Virus record (IMG/VR): IMGVR_UViG_3300009130_000710
Span: 1-62,200 of that record
Source of the DNA: a virus
Length of the DNA: 62,200 nt
Direction: 5' to 3' (one strand)
Part shown: piece by piece, positions 13,339 through 48,743 of the stretch
Layout of the letters: every line of letters begins with the position of its first letter
How positions within the stretch are numbered: position 1 is the stretch's first letter
Program-made: the position numbers and the translations under genes
The notes under the pieces: model-generated
What the model was told of the DNA's origin: nothing
Seen by the model: only the letters and a program-made list of their open reading frames with translations
Databases searched by the model: none

Positions 13339-16300
13339 CTAAACCAAGTCATGTAGTACAATTTGTAGAGGTGTGCCTAAAATATAGACCTTACTTCCAG
13401 TTTCAAATTCATAACCTAATCCATTGTACAGCGTTCTATCTGATATTGTTAAAGATGTATTTTCTTTAGTATCATACATCATAAATTCAATTTGTGAACT
13501 ATTTGGACGTTCAACCGCTATTATTTTTTTATCTGTTCCTGACGCAGTTTTAAATTTACTTGCAGTATTAACTACCAATGTCGTACCGTTAAACGATGAT
13601 AATGTATCGCTATCAATCACATCAATAGAATAACCTCTACCTAACTTATCATACACGTAAAACTTCGTGTTGTCAATAGTGTTTGCACCAATGCCACCAG
13701 TAATATCTCCGTTATATGTTTGTAGACGCAACACTGCCGCATCTAAGTAACCGCTTCTAACTAATCCAGTATCAAACCCAGTTGTTGACGCAGTTGGGGT
13801 ATATCTATTTCTTAATAGCGTGCCTTGTTCCCAAGTTCCGTCTCCTATTTCATCTAGGTTTTCTGGTTCAGAAATTATTTCGTAATCGCCGCCGTCAAGC
13901 GTTTGGTCTTCATATCGGCTATTATTGCCGAAGTTTAACGTAATATTCATACGTTCTTCAACTGAAGTTTTTGTATTAGCAGTTTCGTTTGTTGAATAAA
14001 TTCGTTCAATATCTCTGACCTTAACATGATATGGTTTAGTTTCATTAATATACTCAATAGTATCTTCTTCGCTATCTCTTTGATATACTGCATACTGTCT
14101 TAAATCTCTATTATAAAGTTTTAAGTCAATATAACTAGTTTTGAATATCCAATCAGGATATGACTTTTCGGTAAACAAATAATTAATCATAGCGAAGAAT
14201 GTTTCATTTATAAACTTATCAGTTTCAAATGTGTTTAACATATTCATAAACTCATAAATTTGTATACCAATAGCATTATTATAATATGTAGTATAATTCG
14301 CATCTGGGTATACAATGTTTTGGAAAGACAACTTAAGTGAACCATCACTCCTGTTCACTAATCTCAGTGCATCATTGTCTTCAAAGTAATATTCGTTATG
14401 CGTTGGTAGTTGAATTTTAAATGACTTCGTGCCTTGTTTATATTCTTTTAACATATCAAAATTTCTAGTTGTAGACAAATATGAGAACTGTTTTATGTCT
14501 TTATAATTTTCATTCAAATACCAATCTGTTAGCCCAAATATAAACTCATTATCGTTAATATATTGGTCATATTTTGAGTATGTAGTTCGTAATAATTTAT
14601 TCGCTAGTTTACTATTCATAAAGGTTGCAAAAGTTATTCTTGCTTGAGATAAGTTAGTAAACCAATTGTCTGTTTTTTCATCGACTTGATAGACTCGCAA
14701 TATGTCACCTTCAACCATAGTATATTGTTGGTTGACTTGTAAGTTAGACCCATTAATACTAATGTGTTTCGCAGGGACAATACTACTGTTTAATGTGACC
14801 ACAATATCGTTTATAGTCAAGTCTTCTATCCATGATACATTAACAATTGCGTTATTAACATCTGCTAATTGAGTCGAGTCTAAATCATCTGCAAATATGT
14901 TTGGTACTTTAATGTTTGCTAATGATTCTGTCATATCATTCACTAGCATTGGTAACACCTTAGTATCGGTATTTTCACCAATTAATTCCCAATCACTTGA
15001 AACTTTTGTATTACCAGGATTGACTACTGACCTGTATTCTACCGCTATTTTTATTGTCTCTTCGCCATAGAGATATGCATTGTTACTTATTAGTATGCTT
15101 GTAGGTCCTACTGGTATAAATTTATTTTTTATCTGACCTGTAGAAATGAGTACTGCTAGTTCTTCAGCAATATCATTTGATGTGTCCCAATAAAAATATT
15201 CAGTAATCTCTTTGTCTAACTCTGTATCAAAATACTTCTTAACGTTAAATTGTGATACAGTTGTTGGTAATGTTCTTGTTTTTGTCCAACGTTTTACTGA
15301 CACCGTAGAACCAGGAACAATTTGTCCCCAATGTCGTTTTACATAATCTACCTGTAAGTTTGCATTTTCGTCACCATAGTCATTATAACGATAAAAACGC
15401 ACATCGTCTGTGTCCCACCAGATTTCACCGACTTTTTCATCTAACCATATATCTACACTACCAACATAGTCATATCGTGCTGGGTCATTCCATGACACAT
15501 AATCTAATTTAGATACAATTGCTCCTGGCATTTTTAAATTTAGTGGGTCATATAAGTTATGTGTAATAAACGTTTCTCCATCTTTTACAATTAATCTATG
15601 TACAAGGTCGGTATTGATTTCTTCTGATTGCCTTGCATGTATAGATAGTGAACCTGTTGTGCTTCTTTTCAATACTGCCCAACCTTCGCCTTGCATCTCA
15701 TCTGCCCAAATTAAACTTCCAGAATTAAGACCTAGTTCAGAATAAAATTCATTAAATGAAGATGCTCCAAAATTTGGAGTGTATCTCAATGACTTCCAGA
15801 ACATTGCCTTGTAGTTCGTGTTGCTTGTAACACTAGAGTAATATGATACCAAACCTATAGCAGTCAAAAGCGCACTGTCTGAGCCAACGAATGACATAGA
15901 AGTACCGTTACTAGTAAAAATCATTCTACCGTCACTAGATATATTCACCACGATAGAAGAAGAAGCAGAGTTAATTTGACTTGCAAATTCAACGGCTGAA
16001 GTACTTACTGTCGAGGTATTTGAATATGTTCCAGTAGGTATACCTATATCTGTTAATGGGTTTCCTTGTATATTTGATACGACAACACTCTGTTCATTAC
16101 TTAATATTTTTACTTGTTTATCATCCTTTTGTGCAGTCGTTGAGGCTGAAGTAAATACTTGATTATTCAAATCATCAACAATATTGTCGGTTGCATTTAC
16201 AGTAACCGTTGTAGTTGCAAATCCTAATCTGGACATTGCACCTGAAGTTACTTCTATGATTTCTAAGTCATGGTTGATACTTTCAAATCTAATCTGACCT

Positions 16301-19300
16301 GATGTAACTGATGCTTCCACTCCAGGAGTAATAAGTGCATTAATCTGACCTACTATACTTGCTTGTGTCGGTGCTTGATTTCTTTCATATGTACCTGCAC
16401 CAATTCCTATCTGAGACAATGCCGTGCCTGAAATCACCATAGATGCGGCAGAACTTTCTATTACTAATTTGCCATCAATGTTAATTGATGCAGTGATGTC
16501 CGTTATTGTATCAAGTTCTGATGCTAGATTTTCAAGTTTACTTTCAGAATATATAGTACCACTTGAAATGCCTAGTTCAATTAACGCACCACCTGACATA
16601 TCTAGTTTCGAAACTGATGTTGAAATCTGTAACTGATTTGATGAATTTGAAGCAACCACCGTACTTGAGCCTGCATTAATGGCATCGATAATCGCTGTCA
16701 AGTCATCGGCAGCCGTGAGTGTTATAGATTCTCCGTTAATGACTAACGGTGTTGTTGATGACATAACTGGACTTGTTGTAGTTCCAGTCACTGTGATATC
16801 TGCAACTGTCTTTGTCACGCCATCGATAGTAACAGTATTGCCTGTGTCAAGCACAGATGACGTTGTTCCTGCACTTTCTAAATTTATGTCATTCGTTGCA
16901 CTATAATCTATGGTCAGCGTTGCCCCATCAATAGTTATTTGGTCACCATACACAGAAGAAAATCCACCAGTAGTTTGTGCAACTGTTCCTGTAAATATTA
17001 CAGTAGTATTTGTGTTTACGACCAACCCGTTATTATCATAAATTACAAAACTTGCTCTTTCGCCTGGGTCAACAACTGGGTTAGCAGTTGAACCTAAAAT
17101 AGTAATACCACTTGCCCCGCCAGTCGCTGAACTATATACAAATTCTGTACCATCAATGTATAATGTATCTCCTACATTTATTACAGGATTACTTGCTGTA
17201 CCGATTGCTTCTACACCTGAATCTGTAGATGTAGGCACATATATACTATTTGTTGTACTAACATCAATCTCAACAATAACAGGCTCAAAGTCTTGTTCAA
17301 ATACTAAGTATTCGTATATCGTGGTGCCGTCAACATCTCTAGTTCCATCTAGTGTTAGCAAATAGTAATCTGCAATAGATGGGTCGATTTCAGAGCCTGA
17401 AATCTTTAGGTATATCGGTTGGTCAAGATAGTCTGCATCAATCTCTGAGGTTAAGCCTAAGTACAATTGGTTATCATTTGTTTCACCGATATAACTTATT
17501 TCTGCAATCTCGCTTAATCTCGCAACATCCCAATCTCTGTCTTTATCAAACTGAATCCAAGCAATGTCGCCTTCATATAAATTTGAAGTATCTAAACCCG
17601 ATAGTCCATCATAATCTTTAACTATATAATTTACATCATTTGAGTCAACATATCCTGCATTTTTAATTGCAGGTTTTCTTTTAGAACTCTTGTATTTCAT
17701 TGGATTTTCTACAGCATCGAACTCTACTAAGAACGGGTCAGAAACCATATCAGAAACTAAAATATTATCGTTTGTTAAAGTATATGTAGATTCAATATGT
17801 CCGTAACTGCCTAATTTGAATGCCCATATGTTTTCATGTTGAATATCTTTAAAGTTTGAATTATTATTAAGAATTCTATTAATACTAGAATTTGTACCTT
17901 TATGAGACAAGAACCCTTTATAAAATTCTAATTGTGATTCTCTTTCAACACCATGATTTGTCAGGTACGTCCTTTCAGTATATCCAATTTGACTTGCTTT
18001 CAACTTGTTTATGATAGACAATCCTTGGTCCACTAATGTGTCTCTATAGAATTCTGTCTCAGCAATCATTGTGTCAAAGTTAGGTATTAGTTTATTATCG
18101 TACACTATGTAACCATCTGCGGTTAGCGTTCCATCCCAGTCTATTGTCCTGTTGCAGTCAATCTTCATTCTAAGATTTCTATCATGCGTTAATGGATTAT
18201 AAATTACATCTTCATAACTATCCACTCGGTCAACAACAAATGCATGTTCCACATCTGATATATCCATTTTCATACCGTATACAGGAACATTGCTTCTAAA
18301 TGTAATTGTGTCGCCGTTTGTATAAAATTTTATTTCTGTATTGGGTATAAGCCTACTTGATGCATCTACTACACGATAAAAGTTTTTGTGTGTTTCAGTT
18401 CTGACACTCGCAACACCGTATGGTGCCGAAAATGAACCACTCATTAACATTGGTGTCAGTGTTATAAAATCGCCGACTTGATGCTGTTCTGCTTGCCAAT
18501 CTAAGAACTTGTATAGTAAGTTTTCCCAATCAACGACTTCACCTTTGTCATCTAAGTCAGTGAAATCCCAACCTACTGCTTTTAAGTATTCTTGGTAACC
18601 CATGACTAAATGAGTAACATCGTCAATACTTTCTAAAATATCACCGTAATTATATGTTTTAAGAGTATCATCTAGTAACTTTTTATAACCGTTTGATTGT
18701 ATTCTGTTTTCTCTAGGCCACTCACTTACTGCTTTCCAATCGGAGTAATTATCATCAAATAGTGTTGTCGCAGTATGTGTTTCTAAACAAACATATGGTT
18801 GATTATTGTATACAACATATGAATCTTGTCTATAATATTCTCCCTGTTGCCAGTTCTGTAAATTTGCTAAATCGCCTTGTGTAGAGAAGACTTTTTCACC
18901 ACTTGCTTTATCCCATGCCATAGAATAGAATACTGGATTTATTTCATCATATCCATGTACTCTGAACCCAAACTTTCCTGTTTTCGGTTGCGATATTAAT
19001 GTCCAATTGCTATAATCAAAATATGTTGCACTAGGAGGTGATTGTTCCTTTGTAGTTAATTCTGTTGATTTTCTTTTATAATACTTGCCATCATTTGAAT
19101 TTAGTACAATCATTCCAGCAGAATAATTTGACAAATCTGCAAATGCATATACCGGATGAGGACTATCTAACGAAACTTTTTCAATAATTAATGCACTGAA
19201 AAATTCACTTCTATTTGGTTCGCCTGTATGTACGAACAAATTATAGTTATCTTCAGGTATCTCAGTAAACCTACTATTAGATAATGAATTGTTTTCTGTT

Positions 19301-22206
19301 AACAGTTTGAAGTTATTAACAAATCCACCTAATTTAGAACCTAGTTTAAATGTGTAGTCTTGCTTTTCTTCTACAATAGCAGTTGTATCAATACCGTTAT
19401 GTGTATTAAAATATGTAATAATATCTTTTACTTGTGATGAATAATTATATAGAACCTCAAACGGACAACTCAACATCATTAATAGAAAGTTTGCGAATGG
19501 GTATTCACTGCTTCTTGTCCATGCTAACTCTACTGGTGAATTATCTCCGAATTCCCAGTCTTGGTCCATTATTGCAATTTCTTCTGGTGAAATATTACCA
19601 CCAAAGAATAAGTCTTTTGGTTCTTTTAAGAATCCATTAGAATCAATTGGCACTGGGACAGTAAGAGAATTTTGGGATATAAAGTCATTCCAGAATACTT
19701 CTGTATAATAGTTACCATGTCCTGCATATGTTTGGTCAAACCCTGATGGCTTTTGTGAAAGTTTTAAAACTCTCCAAGGCTCAATCATTGGTTTATCAGT
19801 ACCATAAATGTAGATTAACAATCCTCTCCAATGGCCACTTGCATCTTCGTTTTTTACACGATAGTTCCACGTTTTCCAATCAGTTGCATCATATATATCA
19901 TTATATAAATTATCAATGTTGTTTCTTATCATCCATTTCTTAAAGAAAGGATATAACATATATTTCTTTTCCGCATTGGAATATTCACTTTGTACATCAT
20001 ATAATCCATAGTTCATACTATCAATATTAGTACTATGTGTGTCTAATCTATTATATATTAATGTTTCAAACATCAACATAACTTTATCTATTCTGCCATT
20101 AAATTTTACAACACCCGTACCAGTTCCAACTCCTGTCGCAGTGAATATAGTACCAACGTTGCTGTCTGTGGCTCCGATTAATGTAAAATCAGTATTTCCT
20201 GTTGTTGTTATTTCGTATTCAGTTCCTATTACAATTTCGCCTGCCGCAAAAAATTCAGAATACGATGGCATCAACGACCCATCATGTCCCTGAACAAATC
20301 CTACTTCATTATCATATTCCAAGTCCACGACAATCTTTGGTTCAAATGCTGGATGGATTTTTAATGATGTAGCACTTGGTGGTATATATGTTGATTTAAT
20401 ATTTTTATATAACCTGACAAATACGGTTTCAGTACCTGATAATGGCGAAGAAAAGTCTACGGAGTTACCTGCAATAGGAATAGTATAATCTAATCCAAAT
20501 CTTTGTACTACATTATCTACTATGACCATAATATCTTCATCATTTACAATATCAGATATAAAGTTAGGCATAACTTGTTCAGATGAGCCTGGCGTTATAG
20601 TAATTTGAAGTTCTTCATAGTGTGCGAATTCTTCACCGAAATTAATCATTGTGCTATCTCTAAAGATACTAATACTTTGTTGTTTACCCAGAGATATCGT
20701 AGAAACTGCTTCTTCTAATATTTGCAAGTCTGTTTTTGTTTTACTAGCAGATGATGACAAAATATCAATCACAGTAGTAAGAATTTTATTTTTATATCCG
20801 TTATACGCATTTGATAAGAATTCAGTAGCCAAGAATGGGTCATAATCGTCACGTGTGACTGCAAAGTATGCCTCTTTAATATCAACTGTATTTCTAATAA
20901 GTACACTACCTTCATTTGCGTGTCTTAGTTTATCTGTATTATCTCCCAAGTTTCTATAATTACTAACACCGTTTGGTTTTCCTACTAAACTATTTGTAGT
21001 TTCTATAATACGTACAACATGCTCATATATTGTAGAATATGGGATATCTATATTAACATATGAAAGATTATCTACATTGTATTCTAATGCTGGTTGTAAT
21101 CTTTGAAATACTTCATCACCGTCATATATTACTTCATCTTTTGTACAATAATCTACATATACGTAACCAGTTAATTCACTAGTTGTATTAATTTTATTTG
21201 TCACATTATTGTATGTGTAATTGCCTATCTGTTTAATTCCATCTACATACAAATCGATGTCATTGACATTTTTTGCTTCTTGTAAAAGTTCTATTTGGGA
21301 CAAGTTCTCAACATTGCCCAATTCTTGTCTTAGGTTTCTATAATCAAATGTTGATGCGGTATATAGTGTTTTATATTCTGAATTATATTTGTAAGATAAG
21401 TTATCCAGTAAGTCAATATTGAAAATGAATTCACTTTGATAATCACCTGCTTTTAGTTTAGGTTGAATATCAAGTTCTTGGTCTACTGCGAATTCTGTAC
21501 CTGTTACATAATTAAATATTTTAATATCTTGTACAAACGTATTAGTACTGTCGTATGCTTTAAACTCAGGAATATCAAATTCTGTTACTGTTGCACTAGC
21601 GTCACTCAATTCAATACTGTTATCGAATTCGATAATTGGTCTTAATGCTTGTGATATTAGTGTATAATTTGCATCTGTAATCTGACTTCTAATATCGTCA
21701 TAATGATACCAAGAGTTATTAGAACTCCACCAGTCTGCATTACCTTTATCAATTGTGATATAGTGTTTATTTGTTGTAGATTGTTCTGCGCCCGCAAAGA
21801 ATCCAGGACTGACCCAGTAATACATTGCATAATTTATAAACTTATCTAAATCGATAGGCAGTTGCACTGTTTCTAAATCAGTTTTAAATAACCTACGATG
21901 GTCGTTAGTTAATGAACCTTTATTGAATAATGCATTGAATAAATCTTCATAAAAAACATTATCTGTTGCATTTACATTAGTGAACGTAGGTTCAAGACCA
22001 TAGTTCTCACGTGCAAAAGCGTGTGCAGGAAACGACAAATAAATGTCGTTTTCATTATAGATTCCTTTTTCTTTTCGCCCAACAAATGCTTTAGTCTTTT
22101 CCATTTCTCCTTGAGAGAAAGCACGGTCAAGTGTTGTTTCAACAATTGTTTCTAGTTCACTATTTTTTAAGTGTGCTGGAAGAAAATCATAAATCTTTTT
22201 TGCCAT
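13339..22206 (-). CDS. Giant baseplate-region structural protein (2,955 residues, gp7 position)
   Basis: The gene follows gp6 by 2 bp and occupies the place of T4 gene 7 (baseplate wedge, about 1,030 residues), but is nearly three times as long. The N-terminal part (DFLPAHLKN, long mixed segments with many aromatic residues) and the C-terminal part look like folded baseplate domains. Residues about 1,820-2,125 hold a run of five or so repeats of about 60 residues resembling the flagellin hook IN motif. The C-terminal 400 residues contain ETKPYHVKVRD. I see no enzyme motif. A wedge role is inferred from position and size; a separate fibre-anchoring protein is possible. Confidence 0.6.
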   Translation of the reverse strand: MAKKIYDFLPAHLKNSELETIVETTLDRAFSQGEMEKTKAFVGRKEKGIYNENDIYLSFPAHAFARENYGLEPTFTNVNATDNVFYEDLFNALFNKGSLTNDHRRLFKTDLETVQLPIDLDKFINYAMYYWVSPGFFAGAEQSTTNKHYITIDKGNADWWSSNNSWYHYDDIRSQITDANYTLISQALRPIIEFDNSIELSDASATVTEFDIPEFKAYDSTNTFVQDIKIFNYVTGTEFAVDQELDIQPKLKAGDYQSEFIFNIDLLDNLSYKYNSEYKTLYTASTFDYRNLRQELGNVENLSQIELLQEAKNVNDIDLYVDGIKQIGNYTYNNVTNKINTTSELTGYVYVDYCTKDEVIYDGDEVFQRLQPALEYNVDNLSYVNIDIPYSTIYEHVVRIIETTNSLVGKPNGVSNYRNLGDNTDKLRHANEGSVLIRNTVDIKEAYFAVTRDDYDPFLATEFLSNAYNGYKNKILTTVIDILSSSASKTKTDLQILEEAVSTISLGKQQSISIFRDSTMINFGEEFAHYEELQITITPGSSEQVMPNFISDIVNDEDIMVIVDNVVQRFGLDYTIPIAGNSVDFSSPLSGTETVFVRLYKNIKSTYIPPSATSLKIHPAFEPKIVVDLEYDNEVGFVQGHDGSLMPSYSEFFAAGEIVIGTEYEITTTGNTDFTLIGATDSNVGTIFTATGVGTGTGVVKFNGRIDKVMLMFETLIYNRLDTHSTNIDSMNYGLYDVQSEYSNAEKKYMLYPFFKKWMIRNNIDNLYNDIYDATDWKTWNYRVKNEDASGHWRGLLIYIYGTDKPMIEPWRVLKLSQKPSGFDQTYAGHGNYYTEVFWNDFISQNSLTVPVPIDSNGFLKEPKDLFFGGNISPEEIAIMDQDWEFGDNSPVELAWTRSSEYPFANFLLMMLSCPFEVLYNYSSQVKDIITYFNTHNGIDTTAIVEEKQDYTFKLGSKLGGFVNNFKLLTENNSLSNSRFTEIPEDNYNLFVHTGEPNRSEFFSALIIEKVSLDSPHPVYAFADLSNYSAGMIVLNSNDGKYYKRKSTELTTKEQSPPSATYFDYSNWTLISQPKTGKFGFRVHGYDEINPVFYSMAWDKASGEKVFSTQGDLANLQNWQQGEYYRQDSYVVYNNQPYVCLETHTATTLFDDNYSDWKAVSEWPRENRIQSNGYKKLLDDTLKTYNYGDILESIDDVTHLVMGYQEYLKAVGWDFTDLDDKGEVVDWENLLYKFLDWQAEQHQVGDFITLTPMLMSGSFSAPYGVASVRTETHKNFYRVVDASSRLIPNTEIKFYTNGDTITFRSNVPVYGMKMDISDVEHAFVVDRVDSYEDVIYNPLTHDRNLRMKIDCNRTIDWDGTLTADGYIVYDNKLIPNFDTMIAETEFYRDTLVDQGLSIINKLKASQIGYTERTYLTNHGVERESQLEFYKGFLSHKGTNSSINRILNNNSNFKDIQHENIWAFKLGSYGHIESTYTLTNDNILVSDMVSDPFLVEFDAVENPMKYKSSKRKPAIKNAGYVDSNDVNYIVKDYDGLSGLDTSNLYEGDIAWIQFDKDRDWDVARLSEIAEISYIGETNDNQLYLGLTSEIDADYLDQPIYLKISGSEIDPSIADYYLLTLDGTRDVDGTTIYEYLVFEQDFEPVIVEIDVSTTNSIYVPTSTDSGVEAIGTASNPVINVGDTLYIDGTEFVYSSATGGASGITILGSTANPVVDPGERASFVIYDNNGLVVNTNTTVIFTGTVAQTTGGFSSVYGDQITIDGATLTIDYSATNDINLESAGTTSSVLDTGNTVTIDGVTKTVADITVTGTTTSPVMSSTTPLVINGESITLTAADDLTAIIDAINAGSSTVVASNSSNQLQISTSVSKLDMSGGALIELGISSGTIYSESKLENLASELDTITDITASINIDGKLVIESSAASMVISGTALSQIGIGAGTYERNQAPTQASIVGQINALITPGVEASVTSGQIRFESINHDLEIIEVTSGAMSRLGFATTTVTVNATDNIVDDLNNQVFTSASTTAQKDDKQVKILSNEQSVVVSNIQGNPLTDIGIPTGTYSNTSTVSTSAVEFASQINSASSSIVVNISSDGRMIFTSNGTSMSFVGSDSALLTAIGLVSYYSSVTSNTNYKAMFWKSLRYTPNFGASSFNEFYSELGLNSGSLIWADEMQGEGWAVLKRSTTGSLSIHARQSEEINTDLVHRLIVKDGETFITHNLYDPLNLKMPGAIVSKLDYVSWNDPARYDYVGSVDIWLDEKVGEIWWDTDDVRFYRYNDYGDENANLQVDYVKRHWGQIVPGSTVSVKRWTKTRTLPTTVSQFNVKKYFDTELDKEITEYFYWDTSNDIAEELAVLISTGQIKNKFIPVGPTSILISNNAYLYGEETIKIAVEYRSVVNPGNTKVSSDWELIGENTDTKVLPMLVNDMTESLANIKVPNIFADDLDSTQLADVNNAIVNVSWIEDLTINDIVVTLNSSIVPAKHISINGSNLQVNQQYTMVEGDILRVYQVDEKTDNWFTNLSQARITFATFMNSKLANKLLRTTYSKYDQYINDNEFIFGLTDWYLNENYKDIKQFSYLSTTRNFDMLKEYKQGTKSFKIQLPTHNEYYFEDNDALRLVNRSDGSLKLSFQNIVYPDANYTTYYNNAIGIQIYEFMNMLNTFETDKFINETFFAMINYLFTEKSYPDWIFKTSYIDLKLYNRDLRQYAVYQRDSEEDTIEYINETKPYHVKVRDIERIYSTNETANTKTSVEERMNITLNFGNNSRYEDQTLDGGDYEIISEPENLDEIGDGTWEQGTLLRNRYTPTASTTGFDTGLVRSGYLDAAVLRLQTYNGDITGGIGANTIDNTKFYVYDKLGRGYSIDVIDSDTLSSFNGTTLVVNTASKFKTASGTDKKIIAVERPNSSQIEFMMYDTKENTSLTISDRTLYNGLGYEFETGSKVYILGTPLQIVLHDLV
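15830..16750 (-). repeat. Tandem ~60-residue repeats resembling flagellin hook IN motifs
   Basis: Within the giant gene, successive units end in ELGISSGTI, QIGIGAGTY, RLGFATTT, DIGIPTGTY and AIGLVSYY at a spacing of about 58-62 residues. Each has an internal INA-type helix followed by a GKLVIxS or GRMIFTS strand. Units are diverged at the protein level, so this is an old repeat and not a recent DNA duplication. Confidence 0.7.
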
Positions 22207-42457: not shown

Positions 42458-42664
42458 ATGAAGATATACTTAATCATTACTTTCGTTCTCATTAGCGGTT
42501 CTGAACAAATCATGCCACAGTTCCCACCAAAAGAGGTTACGACTATGGAGATTTGTGAACGCAAAAAAGCGGCAGCGGAAGAATACTTTACATATCAATT
42601 AGAGAATAAACCAGTTAGGTCTATAGTAGGATTTAACGTACAATGTCAGGAAATAGAATCATAA
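42458..42664 (+). CDS. Small exported protein, unknown
   Basis: About 68 residues from ATG 42,458. The N-terminal KIYLIITFVLISG is a short signal-peptide-like or membrane segment; the rest is soluble, with one cysteine in the middle (MEICERKKAAAEEYF) and one near the end (VQCQE), which could form a disulfide in the periplasm. A TTG start at 42,422 would add twelve residues and hide the signal sequence. A periplasmic role (for example a spanin-like or exclusion factor) is possible but unproven. Confidence 0.55.
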   Translation: MKIYLIITFVLISGSEQIMPQFPPKEVTTMEICERKKAAAEEYFTYQLENKPVRSIVGFNVQCQEIES

Positions 42665-43096
42665 TTTTTTACTAATGCTTTCTAAGTATTCAGTTAATAT
42701 TTTAGAACTTCCTACTCTAACATTAATAATCCCGTTGTAATATTCATCGGTTTCTAAAACTCGGCGGTCGAATTGTTCTTTTGCTTCAACGTAACTTAAA
42801 GCACCTCGACTCGGACAGTAGTGTAGAATTTCACGTGCAAACTTGTTGGGACCTAATTTTTTTACATCAGCAATTAGATGGTCAGAAGAACCCCAGTAAG
42901 TTCTCCAATCACTTTCTTTAAACCCACGTCTTTTGTTCTTTCTTCCTTTAAGAGGTGGTTTAGTTGTTTTGAATCGTGCTAACTTCTTACCCACGTACTT
43001 TCGGTTGTTTTCAAGATTCGTAATTAAATATACAAATCCCTCAACATCTTCAGGTAATTCATTTACCACTTCTCCCTTGTATGTCCAATCGCTCAT
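42659..43096 (-). CDS. GIY-YIG-type endonuclease family protein
   Basis: A 145-residue protein with GFVYLITNLENNRKYVGKK (the GIY and YIG strands as VYL and YVG), a basic loop, WRTYWGS and a conserved-type YVEAKEQF where the Glu would bind the metal. The family is widespread in T4-like marine phages as a stand-alone gene; it may be a free-standing homing enzyme or a host-DNA nuclease. It lies downstream of the structured noncoding block on the same strand. It ends 6 nt inside the convergent gene. Confidence 0.75.
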   Translation of the reverse strand: MSDWTYKGEVVNELPEDVEGFVYLITNLENNRKYVGKKLARFKTTKPPLKGRKNKRRGFKESDWRTYWGSSDHLIADVKKLGPNKFAREILHYCPSRGALSYVEAKEQFDRRVLETDEYYNGIINVRVGSSKILTEYLESISKKL

Positions 43097-43224
43097 ATTA
43101 TTCCATTTGTTTTATTCTAAAAGGTCTAAAGACCTAATTCCTTCATAAATTTCATTCGCTTTCGCTCAATCAATTTATTCGGTATTTCTTTTATATCTAT
43201 AATATACTTATATAATATTATCTT

Positions 43225-43645
43225 TTATACTTGTTCCGTTTGGAAGCCATAATTGCCCTGTTGCCAGGACAATAAAAAAATGGCGGAAACTTGTTCCTTG
43301 CTCATCAGCCTCTGTGTCTAAGTTAGCCTCCAGAAAAGGCGAGGTCGGTTGGCGATTCCCTCATCACTTAGTATTGCGTCTTTCGACCCAACGGCACACT
43401 ATTCAACTCACACAGTTCAACTTGAATAATGCAACTAGATTGCCTAGTTCGGTTTGTACAAATGTACGGTAATTCTCTGGTCATCCTAATATCCTTTAGA
43501 GATATGGATGTTTTATATTATAAACAGTCTTTTGTGGTTTACGAGAAGAATGTAGGAGTTCATCCCTACTAGTCTGAACGTATGTAAAATATACGCCCTC
43601 AATCCCGGAACGGCAACCCGCTCAACAGTCCCACTATATCGGTTA
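43225..43645 (-). ncRNA. Candidate large structured RNA in a gene-free block
   Basis: Between gp51 (ends 43,732) and the GIY-YIG gene (starts 43,096) about 630 bp have no gene. The central part is visibly richer in G and C than its AT-rich edges and holds many hairpins: AACTAG/CTAGTT (43,433-43,449), CATCC-ATATC/GATAT-GGATG (43,482-43,510), GTAGG/CCTAC (43,552-43,569), CGTAT/ATACG (43,579-43,595), ATTCAA/TTGAAT (43,401-43,427) and a GTC-GAAA-GAC tetraloop on the minus strand (43,387-43,378). The GNRA loop supports the minus strand. The family is not identified. Confidence 0.6.
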
Positions 43646-43646
43646 T

Positions 43647-43727
43647 ATTAGTTTTCATATTAGTCCCCAGTGTTGAGCCATATTAGTTATAAAAAATGTA
43701 TTAGTTTTATATTAGTTTTATATTAGT
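43647..43727. repeat. Six ATTAGT direct repeats
   Basis: ATTAGT occurs at 43,647, 43,659, 43,682, 43,700, 43,711 and 43,722, mostly inside TATTAGTTTTA units. Spacings of 12, 23, 18, 11 and 11 bp are close to the helical turn except for one. The block lies just after the gp51 stop and before the structured block. It could be a protein-binding array or part of the RNA. Confidence 0.6.
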
Positions 43728-43731
43728 ATTG

Positions 43732-43953
43732 TTAGATTATAGGCGTCCCAGCCTGTTTGCTCATTTCGAAATTCTCATTGACAATTTCGTTTAGATAGTC
43801 CATGTGACCTGCGGGCATTTCGTGTATTTCACTAATGCTAACCCCACCTCTCATGTACCAACTTAACTTTAACATATTCTTATGTAGTTTGTCAAGTCTT
43901 TTTTGATATTTTTCTTGTTTTTCTGCAATTTCTTCTGGGCTGGCGCTAACCAA
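43732..43953 (-). CDS. gp51: Baseplate hub assembly protein gp51-like, probably translated by frameshift from gp26
   Basis: The 73-residue frame carries LSWYMRGGVSISEIHEMP, typical of the short gp51-like hub assembly proteins of marine T4-like phages. The only start in the frame is a TTG (43,953) with no Shine-Dalgarno and inside a hairpin loop. The frame is open further upstream (FLGW) across the gp26 stop, and a slippery heptamer lies in the overlap. I therefore read it as the -1 extension of gp26, giving a fusion of about 352 residues. In T4 gp51 acts in hub assembly. Confidence 0.75.
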   Translation of the reverse strand: MVSASPEEIAEKQEKYQKRLDKLHKNMLKLSWYMRGGVSISEIHEMPAGHMDYLNEIVNENFEMSKQAGTPII

Positions 43954-43971
43954 CCAGCCTAAGAAAAATTT
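43938..43971 (-). promoter_or_regulatory. Programmed -1 frameshift signal (gp26 to gp51)
   Basis: On the minus strand the heptamer A AAT TTT (43,971-43,965) sits in the gp26 frame as XXXYYYZ. Five nt later GGCTGG (43,959-43,954) pairs with CCAGCC (43,943-43,938) around a 10-nt loop. The gp26 stop TAG spans the spacer and the first base of the stem. Slipping back one base continues into the gp51 frame. Confidence 0.8.
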
Positions 43972-44789
43972 ACAGGATTAATCTCAAGCGTTATTTCGTC
44001 TTTATGACCACATTCAGCACATGTAAATTCAAACTTTGATAAATCATCAGGCTTTTTGCTTAATTCTTTTACTTTACTTTGAATTGTCTTTACAATAGGT
44101 GCAGGGATATCATTTAGAAATTGTCTAATTTCGTTTTCATCAACCACATCACCTTCTGGTGTTTCTATTCTAGCAATAGATGTTGTAACTAAATCAATAT
44201 TCTGAATTGCAACTTTTCTAAAGCCGTCTGAAAAAGTCTTTGCCAATGTCAATTCATCTTCTTCTTCATTTACTGATTTGCGAACACTTTCAAGTATTCG
44301 TCTTTGTTCAACTTCCATTAATGCTAAACGTGTTATGCTTTCAATTTTTGCTGGTTGAACGTGAATTTTTAAATCATCAAATTCAATCGGTTCAACTTCT
44401 GAGATATCAGGGAATTTATCTAATAGATAATTTATATCTATATTATAATCTCCCTGTGCTGTACACTCTGAACAAGTGTGAGTATGTGTAATATCTTTTC
44501 CGTATGTTGCATATTTGATAGCAAGAAACAACGCTTCCACATCAATGTTACACAATTGTCTTGCGTCTTTGATAGATGGAACACAACTCTCAATAAGATT
44601 GATTAAAGCCTCACCATTTAGTAATGCATCTGGGTTCTCTAATGAAATCTCATCAACTGCCGTCATGGGCAAAATACCGATTTCATCTAATATCGTTTTA
44701 TCTATTTCCGGGTTAAACTTCCCACCAGTTGGTATTTGTACGTACAACTGAGGTTTACGGAAATATTTTGATAATAAGTTTTTGCTCAT
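43959..44789 (-). CDS. gp26: Baseplate hub assembly protein gp26-like
   Basis: A 276-residue protein. The N-terminal region (YVQIPTGGKF, then DEIGILPMTAVDE, then NPDALLNGEALINLI) is typical of the gp26 family of T4-like phages. Two CxxC pairs, CSEC in the middle and CAEC near the end, look like a zinc-binding pair. T4 gp26 has 208 residues and is needed for hub assembly. It ends in VNFS, where the frameshift site lies. It would behave like the short form of a chaperone whose long form carries gp51 (by analogy with lambda gpG/gpGT). Confidence 0.82.
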   Translation of the reverse strand: MSKNLLSKYFRKPQLYVQIPTGGKFNPEIDKTILDEIGILPMTAVDEISLENPDALLNGEALINLIESCVPSIKDARQLCNIDVEALFLAIKYATYGKDITHTHTCSECTAQGDYNIDINYLLDKFPDISEVEPIEFDDLKIHVQPAKIESITRLALMEVEQRRILESVRKSVNEEEDELTLAKTFSDGFRKVAIQNIDLVTTSIARIETPEGDVVDENEIRQFLNDIPAPIVKTIQSKVKELSKKPDDLSKFEFTCAECGHKDEITLEINPVNFS

Positions 44790-44916: not shown

Positions 44917-46986
44917 ATGGCAGACACACAAGACGTATATATTTCTGGTTATGACCCCAATTTGCCAGACTGGGCCCTTGAAGCCACACAAAAGCAGATA
45001 GCATCAGCACTTACGTTAGCCAATGTAGGCTCTACAAACATGCTTAAGTTTCTTAAAGCAATATCTAATAATGAACAGATTTCAGTATCAGAACTTACTA
45101 AAGCAGTCAATGAACTAAAACAAGTAAAAAATAAGATTGAAGACGGCACAAAACAAGAACAGAGGTCGTCACAACAAGAAGCCGCACAAGATAGAAAAAC
45201 AAATTCATTCTTTGAGCGCCTAGTTAATTTACAAACTAAACAAAATAATTTAGAAAAACAATTACTAGATGAAACTAAGAAAAAACAAGCAGAACGACAG
45301 ATACGTGGTGGCTTTACGGATGAAGACTTACGAACACAAGAGTCGATGGACAAGTTGAAAAATCTGGGTAAAGGATTTCAAGCAGTAGCATCGGCATCGG
45401 CAGTAGCATCCGCAGGAATTGAATCTGCATTTAGACAGGGGTTTATGGATAGATTTGATATGGCACAAGAAATGCGACAATCTGGACTGTTAGCAGGGCT
45501 AGATTCTGCTTCTGCTGGATTATTGAATATGTCGCAGACAATCACAGATGCTAATTTTACTTTTGGCGAAGCCGCAGAATTTACAAAAAGATTTTCACAA
45601 GCAGTCGGTGTGACTGGCGTACAGAGTGCATTACAATTTGCAGACTCTATTGCAACAGGCGATGATGGGATGATGGCAAAACTGGGCATAGAGTTTGGAC
45701 AAGTTGCAAACATGACAGGTATGTATTTGGAGTCATTACGAATTGCAGGTCAATTGAATGGTCGTTCTGACCAACAACTGCGTTCTGGTATGGATGACTT
45801 TATGGATAATGTAGTTAGCACAGCAAACGTATTAAAAGTTTCAGTGGAAGAAGCGGCAGAAATGATGATGAAAACGTTGGATACATCAGATACAGGTTTA
45901 TTAGCAACTATGAACCAAGACCAAGCCGCAACGATTGAAAATGCATTAAGGTCTTTCGGTTCACAAGGCGGACCTTTGATGGAAGCACTTTCTGCCAGAT
46001 TGACAGCAGGTGACCAAGGAACGTTCTTAAGAACAGAACAGTTTCAAGGATTACAAGGCACTGCATTAGGTCAAGAAATGTTACCATTTATTGAACAGAT
46101 GGCACGTGTAGTAGAAGAAGGTGGAGATTTTCAAGGGTTCTTATCTACGAATATGGGAGATATGGCAGAGCGTGTTAGAGACTTAGCGTCCCAGGCAGGT
46201 GTACGAGAACAACTGGTGGATGACCCACAATTAGCATCGTTAGTCGGTGCGTTAATGCAACAAGCACAAACTATTGAAGATGCTAGTAAGGGTATGCCGA
46301 TGCTTGATGAAGCAGGAAGAACTGGACTTGTTAAGACAGAGTTAGATAGACAGGCTATAATTGCATCTGAGGATGTTGTAAATGAAAGTATGAGTGATTT
46401 TGTAGGAAATATGCAAATATTGAATACAACCCAGGCAGAGTTGATAGAACAGGCACGTAAATCATTTAAAAACATATCAGGAATAACTGATATCGTTAAC
46501 AACGTAGGAACTGCGTTAACCGTATTGACTAGAGTTGCAACTGAATTTGGTCTTTCACTTTTAGATTTGGGAATTAATTCTGACCGATATGATGGGTTAG
46601 AAGATGCGATGAAATTGCAAGATATACGAAATAATATAGATAATGGAAATAATACGACTTCAAATAGAAATAGTCTACCTAGTGTCCCATCTATTGTAGA
46701 TGTGCAAAACGCGGCAGTTGAATTGAGTACTAAAGTAAATGCACCAATAACACATGATGCAGTGTTTGATACATTAGCAGAACAATTACGTAATTCTAAT
46801 GTTACATCGGAAGAACAATTAACACAACTCATTGACTTATTAAAACACCAACAAGCAAATACAGAAACAAGAATGAATGCTTCACCAATAGGTTCGCAAG
46901 AAAGAAATATTGAAGACACTAATATAAATGAATACAATCGATTGATATCAATGATTGGTGACCTTATAACAGAATTGAGACAATAA
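44917..46986 (+). CDS. gp29: Probable tail tape measure protein (gp29-like)
   Basis: About 689 residues from ATG 44,917, behind GAGAG; a TTG at 44,902 would add five residues. Long helical stretches with few cysteines, Gln- and Ala-rich coiled coil (about residues 60-150), then helix-loop repeats and a C-terminal low-complexity NNGNNTTSNRNS linker. This fits a tape measure and its size is near T4 gp29 (590 residues). It lies divergently next to gp26/gp51, the putative tail chaperones, as tape measure genes usually do. The assignment rests on composition and context, not on a motif. Confidence 0.6.
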   Translation: MADTQDVYISGYDPNLPDWALEATQKQIASALTLANVGSTNMLKFLKAISNNEQISVSELTKAVNELKQVKNKIEDGTKQEQRSSQQEAAQDRKTNSFFERLVNLQTKQNNLEKQLLDETKKKQAERQIRGGFTDEDLRTQESMDKLKNLGKGFQAVASASAVASAGIESAFRQGFMDRFDMAQEMRQSGLLAGLDSASAGLLNMSQTITDANFTFGEAAEFTKRFSQAVGVTGVQSALQFADSIATGDDGMMAKLGIEFGQVANMTGMYLESLRIAGQLNGRSDQQLRSGMDDFMDNVVSTANVLKVSVEEAAEMMMKTLDTSDTGLLATMNQDQAATIENALRSFGSQGGPLMEALSARLTAGDQGTFLRTEQFQGLQGTALGQEMLPFIEQMARVVEEGGDFQGFLSTNMGDMAERVRDLASQAGVREQLVDDPQLASLVGALMQQAQTIEDASKGMPMLDEAGRTGLVKTELDRQAIIASEDVVNESMSDFVGNMQILNTTQAELIEQARKSFKNISGITDIVNNVGTALTVLTRVATEFGLSLLDLGINSDRYDGLEDAMKLQDIRNNIDNGNNTTSNRNSLPSVPSIVDVQNAAVELSTKVNAPITHDAVFDTLAEQLRNSNVTSEEQLTQLIDLLKHQQANTETRMNASPIGSQERNIEDTNINEYNRLISMIGDLITELRQ

Positions 46987-47048: not shown

Positions 47049-48743
47049 ATGACTTGGAAAAAATATTTTAAAACTTATGACGGGATGCCTGAGCGTTCTA
47101 AACCATCTACCTCTGGTGGTGGTGATGCTTCTAGTAAGAAGTATAGCAGTTGGCTTCCAGAAGTTTATCAAGGGCAACCCAATAGAGTACAGCGTTATGG
47201 TCAATATGACCAGATGGATATGGATTCAGAAGTAAATGCGGCTTTAGATACTATTGCTGAATTCTCTACACTATTCAATGAAACATCAAAACTAGCATTC
47301 CAAGTCGAGTTTAATGAAGACCCATCATTTACTGAAAATGAAATCATTCAAAAATCACTAAGACAGTGGTCAAATATGAATGAAATGAGTAAGCGTGTAT
47401 TCAGAATATTTAGAAACACAATTAAATATGGTGACCAAATCTTTATTCGTGACCCAGAAACGTATAAATTATATTGGGTTAACCCAGTTAAAATTGATAA
47501 AGTTGTTGTCAACGAAGGCAAAGGTAAGAAAGTAGAAGCCTATTATATCAAAGATTTAGACCTTAATTTACAGAGTTTAAACATTACTGCTGATAGTACT
47601 AAATTAGCACAGACAGGTGCAGGTGCAATGGGAATCCCAACGCATAACGCTAGTACTACTCAAGGATATACAGGCGGAACAGCAGGTGGTTCACGTTTTG
47701 CAACAGATGAGACATCAACACCAGTCGATGCCAAACATATAATTCATATCTCATTGAGTGAAGGTATTGATAGTTACTGGCCATTCGGCACAAGCATACT
47801 TGAACCAGTATTTAAAGTATACAAACAAAAAGAATTACTAGAAGATTCCATTATTATCTATCGTGTACAACGTGCGCCAGAACGTAGAGTATTCTATATC
47901 GATGTTGGTGATATGCCAACGCACAAAGCACGTCAACACTTAGAGCGTATTAAGAGTGATATTCACCAAAGACGTATCCCATCTAAAACAGGTGGCGGAC
48001 AAAATGTTACAGATAGTGCATACAACCCACTATCTATTATGGAAGATTACTTCTTTGCTCAAACGGCTGAAGGTCGTGGTTCTAAAGTTGAAACACTCCC
48101 AGGTGGTGAAAACTTAGGTCAAATTGATGACTTGAAATACTTTAATGACAAACTATTACGAGGATTGCGTGTCCCACCAAGTTACTTGGGTGGTATTGAT
48201 ACGGGTGGTTCTGCATTTAATGATGGCAGAACAGGTACTGCAATGATACAAGAGTTTAGATTTACTAAATTCTGTGAAAGATTACAGCAACTTATTATCG
48301 AAGAAATTGACCGCGAATTTAAGATGTTCTTAAAACACCGTGGTGTTCAGATTGAAAGTAGCACGTTTGACTTGAAGTTCAACGTAGTTCAGAACTTCGG
48401 TAAATTCCGTCAAGCAGAAGTAGACCAAGTTGCAATGAACGTATTCACTGGTATCGAAGGTGCAGACTACATCAGTAAGCGTTTTGCATTGAAGCGTTTC
48501 TTAGGATTGTCAGAAGAAGAAGTATTAGAGAACGAAATGTTATGGAAAGAAGAACATGACGTTGACGACCCACTAGCACAAAATCCTGATGGGTTGAAAG
48601 GTGTAGGCGCAAGTCCTGGTCCTGATATGGGAATGAGTGATATGGGCGGCGAAGACTTCGATTTAGATGACGCAGAAGGTGATATTGAAGACGGTTCTCC
48701 AATATCAGGTGCGGAAAACGCCGAAACTGACGAAGATGTATAA
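47049..48743 (+). CDS. gp20: Portal vertex protein gp20
   Basis: A 564-residue protein with the T4-like portal signatures MDSEVNAALDTIAEFST, the FRIFRNTIKYGDQIF segment, RAPERRVFYIDVG, MEDYFFAQTAEGRGS and LPGGENLGQIDDLKYF (with its KLLRGLRVPPSYL continuation). It forms the dodecameric ring through which DNA is packaged. T4 gp20 has 524 residues. The C-terminus is acidic (GGEDFDLDDAEGD). The order gp20, small protein, acidic protein, gp21, gp22, gp23 follows T4 20-67-68-21-22-23. Confidence 0.97.
   Translation: MTWKKYFKTYDGMPERSKPSTSGGGDASSKKYSSWLPEVYQGQPNRVQRYGQYDQMDMDSEVNAALDTIAEFSTLFNETSKLAFQVEFNEDPSFTENEIIQKSLRQWSNMNEMSKRVFRIFRNTIKYGDQIFIRDPETYKLYWVNPVKIDKVVVNEGKGKKVEAYYIKDLDLNLQSLNITADSTKLAQTGAGAMGIPTHNASTTQGYTGGTAGGSRFATDETSTPVDAKHIIHISLSEGIDSYWPFGTSILEPVFKVYKQKELLEDSIIIYRVQRAPERRVFYIDVGDMPTHKARQHLERIKSDIHQRRIPSKTGGGQNVTDSAYNPLSIMEDYFFAQTAEGRGSKVETLPGGENLGQIDDLKYFNDKLLRGLRVPPSYLGGIDTGGSAFNDGRTGTAMIQEFRFTKFCERLQQLIIEEIDREFKMFLKHRGVQIESSTFDLKFNVVQNFGKFRQAEVDQVAMNVFTGIEGADYISKRFALKRFLGLSEEEVLENEMLWKEEHDVDDPLAQNPDGLKGVGASPGPDMGMSDMGGEDFDLDDAEGDIEDGSPISGAENAETDEDV

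Follow-up and report, generated by a model that had tools for sequence, protein, structure and literature searches.

A conserved slippery site at the end of a gp26-like gene and a predicted -1 frameshift in T4-like phages

The DNA considered here is a stretch of 62,200 nucleotides (nt) from IMG/VR virus record IMGVR_UViG_3300009130_000710 (positions 1 to 62,200; hereafter the window), which is part of a T4-like phage (portal gene gp20 at 47049-48740, PF07230 E=1e-104; a search for tRNA genes found none). At the end of its gp26-like gene, on the minus strand, a slippery heptamer precedes the stop codon and a second open reading frame (ORF) continues in the -1 frame; a -1 slip of the ribosome at this site is predicted, with high confidence from sequence comparison, to yield a short and a long form of a tail assembly chaperone. 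A conserved site, frame and hairpin are observed, together with selection on the extension that the -1 frame encodes. Frameshifting in chaperone genes of this kind is already known, and what is added here is the variant heptamer A AAT TTT together with a hairpin. In the literature searched, from which subscription journals are mostly absent, neither this heptamer variant nor the hairpin was found described for the gp26 group.

Slip site and its conservation

The gp26-like gene, the short form or TAC-N, occupies 43962-44789 on the minus strand, encodes 276 amino acids and ends with CCT GTA AAT TTT TCT TAG G. The heptamer A AAT TTT (43965-43971) is in phase with gp26 and precedes the 5-nt spacer TCTTA (43960-43964) and the stop TAG (43959-43961), which the predicted slip would bypass and which overlaps both the spacer and the stem of a hairpin, GGCTGGT-TGGTTAGC-GCCAGCC (43938-43959), a probable pause or stimulator element. 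In this hairpin 43959-43953 pairs with 43944-43938 to give a stem of 7 bp, GGCTGGT/GCCAGCC, closing a loop of 8 nt. An earlier reading made from the letters of the window (the sequence-only reading) had described this heptamer, the 5-nt spacer, a GGCTGG/CCAGCC stem-loop and the gp26 stop placed between site and stem; each of these is borne out, the six-base-pair core being right and open to a seventh pair (U-G). Relative to the gp26 stop, the open -1 frame stretches from 16 nt upstream to 227 nt downstream; it encodes the extension FFLGWLVSASPEEIAEK...AGTPII (43735-43968, minus strand; stop at 43732-43734), 78 codons counted from FF. The predicted product of the slip reads ..NPVNF-FLGWLVSASPEEIAE.. 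and is a fusion of 352 amino acids. In-frame sites of the form X XXY YYZ number 53 in the 17,017 codons of the long ORFs of the window, and among these the site at the end of gp26 has the strongest 3′ hairpin (-11.5 kcal/mol; the runner-up reaches -5.6).

Relatives were picked by gp26 protein similarity only, which gave 62 phage records (none reaching 60% identity) and 80 IMG/VR loci; cyanophages, one pelagiphage and T4 were added to these, and extra relatives from the window clade were obtained through a motif search for a downstream RNA described below. The 95 loci counted here are those with a junction that was read, T4 excluded, and include jumbo phages, cyanophages, the pelagiphage and viral contigs. 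The sequence-only reading had asked for a check of the heptamer among relatives, and an in-frame X XXY YYZ does stand at the homologous place in 95/95 loci, with the -1 extension open in every one of them (95/95). The site is T TTT TTC alone in 46 loci, a tandem of A AAT TTT and T TTT TTC in 38, A AAT TTT alone in 10 (the window included) and T TTT TTT in 1. The length of the extension ranges from 63 to 80 codons in the 67 non-redundant loci where it was measurable. A search of phage records for DNA similar to the site region gave no match.

The codons at the site vary in a manner that keeps the heptamer. Wherever T TTT TTC or T TTT TTT is used, the codon preceding FF ends in T (63/63 loci), and the residue that it encodes is variable (N, S, D, H, T, G, Y or R); the naive log10 probability of this pattern against local codon usage is about -12.5, a value that overstates the case because the loci share ancestry. 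Within the window clade A AAT TTT is kept in 27/27 unique junctions read, and T TTT TTC is also kept in seven only. The codon ahead of AAT varies in this clade (GTA, GCA, ATA) and yet always ends in A, and because the heptamer is at the same time universal, it is A AAT TTT that selection keeps. At composite AAATTTTTTC sites both heptamers lead to the identical protein, N-F-F-R, and since either yields it the lineage of the window could drop T TTT TTC and rely on A AAT TTT. Such tandem heptamers illustrate how one slip site can give way to another while the protein stays the same.

The public records of Pseudomonas phage Cassandra (L006) and Klebsiella phage RaK2 (L013) have no coding sequence (CDS) for the -1 extension, though it is open and conserved in both. 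Annotations of this region can be corrected where the second ORF is missing, is called hypothetical or is named gp51.

The -1 extension, the hairpin and competing explanations

Past the overlap, comparison of the window with the related locus L029 gives dN 0.15 and dS 2.03 (nonsynonymous and synonymous divergence) in the -1 frame, and ratios above 1 in the other two frames; by this measure, purifying selection acts on the extension in its -1 reading and in neither of the others. Its identity to L029 is 72%, compared with 59% for gp26. The foremost alternative is that the second ORF encodes a separate small protein, either from a TTG start of its own located in the hairpin or through re-initiation once ribosomes have terminated on gp26. 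Several public records do annotate a separate CDS (e.g., CBB, 121Q and P-SSM4), and an ATG lies just beyond the site in a few relatives (L004, L005). A start of its own is, however, not conserved across the relatives, and an ATG or GTG with a Shine-Dalgarno-like motif occurs within the first 25 codons in 4/67 loci only. In the window itself no ATG or GTG is present in the first 25 codons of the -1 ORF, and the earliest possible start is the TTG within the hairpin, in agreement with the sequence-only reading, which had found no good start in this frame. In addition, the slip site is where both the open frame and the invariant FF begin, ahead of any possible start, the heptamer persists although the codons change, and T4 gp51 is a natural in-frame fusion; a separate protein is accordingly improbable.

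Still less probable is transcriptional slippage, in which a T run rather than the ribosome would give access to the second frame. Runs of T6 are found at the site in the wider group, but the run in the window is merely T5 after A3, and slippage by RNA polymerase usually requires longer runs. Tandem slippage on the ribosome agrees with the X XXY YYZ phase and with a hairpin 3′ of the site, neither of which would otherwise be needed. An assembly error or a single-base mutation that split one gene has a negligible chance of being correct: an indel would produce such a split ORF, but the same split recurs in 95 loci, finished genomes of isolated phages among them, with frame and site kept, and this refutes the error reading.

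The predicted ribosomal slip is accompanied by a hairpin whose stability was compared with that of shuffled sequences. The window hairpin has z -3.7 against dinucleotide shuffles, the entire 57-nt stretch has z -2.4, and against shuffles preserving the amino acids of the -1 frame the hairpin has p=0.035. A helix beginning no more than 15 nt past the site is present at p<=0.05 (dinucleotide shuffle) in 34/69 non-redundant loci. With amino-acid-preserving shuffles the window clade averages -9.4 kcal/mol versus -3.2 for the shuffled sequences, and p<=0.05 is reached in 22/28 of its loci and in 33/68 loci outside it. In a group of 16 sequences 85.8% of cells pair, as opposed to 32-44% in slid controls, and one pair covaries, being A-U in eight sequences and G-C in eight. 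The pairing partner GCCAGC is encoded in L122 and L182 by codons unlike those of most clade members, a sign of selection at the RNA level.

Some observations weigh against the slip and its products as proposed here. About half of the relatives lack a clear hairpin, and one member of the window clade (L165) has none; in the small group of the window covariation is slight, with one pair occurring as G-C, A-U and G-U; and the assignment of the divergent neighbour of gp26, discussed below, as the tape measure gene is plausible but unproven. Since about half of the loci are without a clear helix, the hairpin is no general requirement; judged from these comparisons it is a frequent helper and not a fixed part.

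The slipping itself, the slip rate and the chaperone role are what we infer in the following scheme. Most ribosomes would terminate at the TAG and release the short chaperone of 276 amino acids. Some would pause at the hairpin with tRNA-Asn and tRNA-Phe on AAT TTT, slip by -1 to AAA TTT and bypass the stop, thereby producing the 352-residue long form, whose C-terminal extension, predicted to be helical, has about 77 residues (N-F-F-L-G-W-L...). The short and long forms would then coat the tape measure protein and recruit the tail tube subunits, as gpG and gpGT of phage lambda are known to do.

Probable chaperone identity and the relation to T4 gp26 and gp51

The gp26-like protein matches PF12322 (T4_baseplate) with 66.6 bits against a gathering score of 24.5 (E=3.3e-18) and phrog_150 with E=2.7e-22. 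Its AlphaFold2 model has a mean predicted local distance difference test (pLDDT) score of 88, and the HK97 tail assembly chaperone (2ob9) is the second row of a second-look structural alignment (Z 6.5, root-mean-square deviation 3.5), in which 89/107 residues align with model residues 23-245; most other top rows match one long helix only. Foldseek gives 2ob9 a template modelling (TM) score of 0.52 on the target, but with E 7.9. Taken together, the model comparisons are suggestive of a chaperone-like fold. The extension alone has no match in Pfam or PHROGs; in a fold search its best hit was an unrelated helical enzyme (Z 4.5), which was not used.

Lambda, in which the slip site is G GGA AAG, offers the classical comparison for the arrangement in the window, where a gene whose model is suggestive of a chaperone-like fold adjoins a candidate tape measure gene. 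The window differs in its heptamer, which is A AAT TTT, and in having the candidate tape measure gene on the opposite strand. For the -1 frameshift of tail assembly chaperone genes in long-tailed phages PMC9024508 cites Xu, Hendrix and Duda 2004; it has also been reviewed (PMC5009743), with the statement that it is conserved in long-tailed phages "except T4" (PMC5009743).

In PMC3004832 the T4 proteins gp26 and gp51 appear in a list as chaperones of hub assembly. Both belong to PF12322 (E=9e-64 and 4e-52), which they share with the window protein, and they are paralogues encoded on opposite strands. T4 differs from the window in having two divergent genes and no heptamer at the end of gp26, which finishes ..GLKEFFELL with the codons GAG TTC TTT GAG. 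In gp51 (249 amino acids) residues 1-201 correspond to PF12322 and are followed by a C-terminal extension, whereas the small ORF of the window is without the PF12322 core. Because the small ORF matches just the C-terminal extension of gp51, it is the fusion that would be the equivalent of gp51, and the name gp51 for the small ORF follows a habit of cyanophage annotation.

Comparison of profiles connects the three groups. Fusions from jumbo phages align with cyanophage fusions over 273 columns, through the junction (E=5e-11); cyanophage fusions align with T4 gp51 along its length (E=7e-6); and T4 gp26 aligns with the short form, ending just beyond FF (E=5e-12). By these alignments, which run through or up to the junction, T4 gp26 is the counterpart of the short form and T4 gp51 that of the long one. 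The jumbo-phage extension alone is too weak a match to the tail of T4 gp51, and it is the cyanophage bridge alone that links them; a jumbo-phage fusion compared directly with single T4 sequences likewise gives a weak match. The sequence-only reading had called gp26 and gp26-51 the T4-like chaperone pair. Its frameshift and chaperone parts are strongly supported by sequence, and cyanophages and jumbo phages do have the slip, but the small ORF is not a whole gp51, and T4 itself is without a slip site and makes use of two genes.

The cyanophages P-SSM4, P-SSM2 and Syn9 and the pelagiphage HTVC008M have the same arrangement of gp26 and "gp51" with an in-frame heptamer at the homologous place; they differ from the window in using T TTT TTC or T TTT TTT and in having a shorter extension of 63-68 codons. 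The P-SSM4 record annotates two CDS. The predicted frameshift would thus occupy one homologous site in cyanophages, the pelagiphage and many jumbo phages, and the two genes of T4 would stand for its two products. Because the frameshift is widespread among relatives, we infer that it was ancestral and that the gene duplication of T4 came later; given its wide occurrence and the correspondence to the T4 genes, a frameshift in the ancestor followed by duplication is a simple and testable history.

Vladimirov, Gautam and Davidson reportedly identified and named the tail assembly chaperones of T4-like phages in 2022. According to a passage of PMC10885494 that draws on Vladimirov 2022, some T4-like phages have a short gene and a fused long gene, and poly-T slippery sequences in T4-like TAC-N genes are mentioned, from the same source, in a passage of PMC12846349. 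The chaperone gene of Vandenendeviridae and Andersonviridae (GTTTTT motif; PMC12846349) is alike in its poly-T -1 site and in a -1 frame that is open in all members, but belongs to other phage families.

Two further observations concern phage P1. Its protein PmgB (L026; NC_005856 45008-45331, minus strand) has a weak match to PF12322 (E=2.5e-4) and no evident slip site at its end, and phrog_1854, "PmgB-like", weakly matches the gp26 of the window (E=0.001). These weak matches fit a published guess, given in a passage of PMC9024508, that PmgB serves as the chaperone of a tape measure protein.

The divergent neighbour and a structured RNA

Next to gp26, and divergently transcribed, lies a gene for 689 amino acids (44917-46983, plus strand), a candidate for the tape measure protein, as the sequence-only reading had proposed. 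The adjoining divergent gene is there, its position beside the portal gene is kept in several jumbo phages and in the window clade, and relatives lend some weak support, but the window protein itself has no match in Pfam or PHROG. The XaC1 relative has a weak match to a tape-measure family (E=0.002), and for the RaK2 relative an annotator's note supports this assignment. CBB_251, the relative in phage CBB, is represented by 29 peptides in the published virion proteome. The published table of virion mass spectrometry lists neither CBB_250, the gp26 relative, nor CBB_249, which is related to the extension; this is weak evidence since the portal CBB_252 is not in it either.

Directly 3′ of the chaperone gene, between the extension and a SegE-like ORF, an unannotated structured RNA of about 620 nt is found at 43110-43731 on the minus strand. 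It has no match in Rfam, and on this ground a group I intron was rejected for 43.1-43.7 kb, as was any other known RNA. In an alignment of 13 sequences, 54 of its 95 predicted pairs show compensatory changes. In all window-clade relatives whose flank is long enough, the RNA comes after the chaperone gene and shares its strand, whether or not the endonuclease ORF is present, and the core of the RNA is carried by 63 viral contig stretches. Searching with a model of the core brings up distant copies close to the chaperone gene in other subclades, of which L068:5201-5319 (+; E=1.4e-4) is the best, with weaker matches at L080:4721-4816 (-), L036:5295-5416 (-) and L049:4796-4903 (-), some of them on the opposite strand; the RNA family may be more ancient and more widespread. 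That the chaperone gene and the RNA form one module, with the RNA acting in tail assembly or chaperone supply, is a speculative suggestion with a rather low probability; it draws on the fixed linkage and the strong covariation of the RNA, and the evidence contains no functional link.

Near the end of the RNA region a palindrome, AGGTCTTTAGACCT (about 43117-43135, minus strand), is near-invariant in nearly all relatives; it is perhaps not an ordinary terminator, as a T run is mostly absent. Right after the stop of the extension, five CTAATAT repeats spaced about 10-30 nt apart (43640-43731, minus strand) are partly kept in relatives. Beyond the RNA, the SegE-like ORF (42659-43096, minus strand) encodes a GIY-YIG homing endonuclease (PF19835, E=3e-35) that is present in many relatives and was not found in others. 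Elsewhere in the window, a single ORF of 2955 amino acids (13342-22206, minus strand) far exceeds its neighbours in size.
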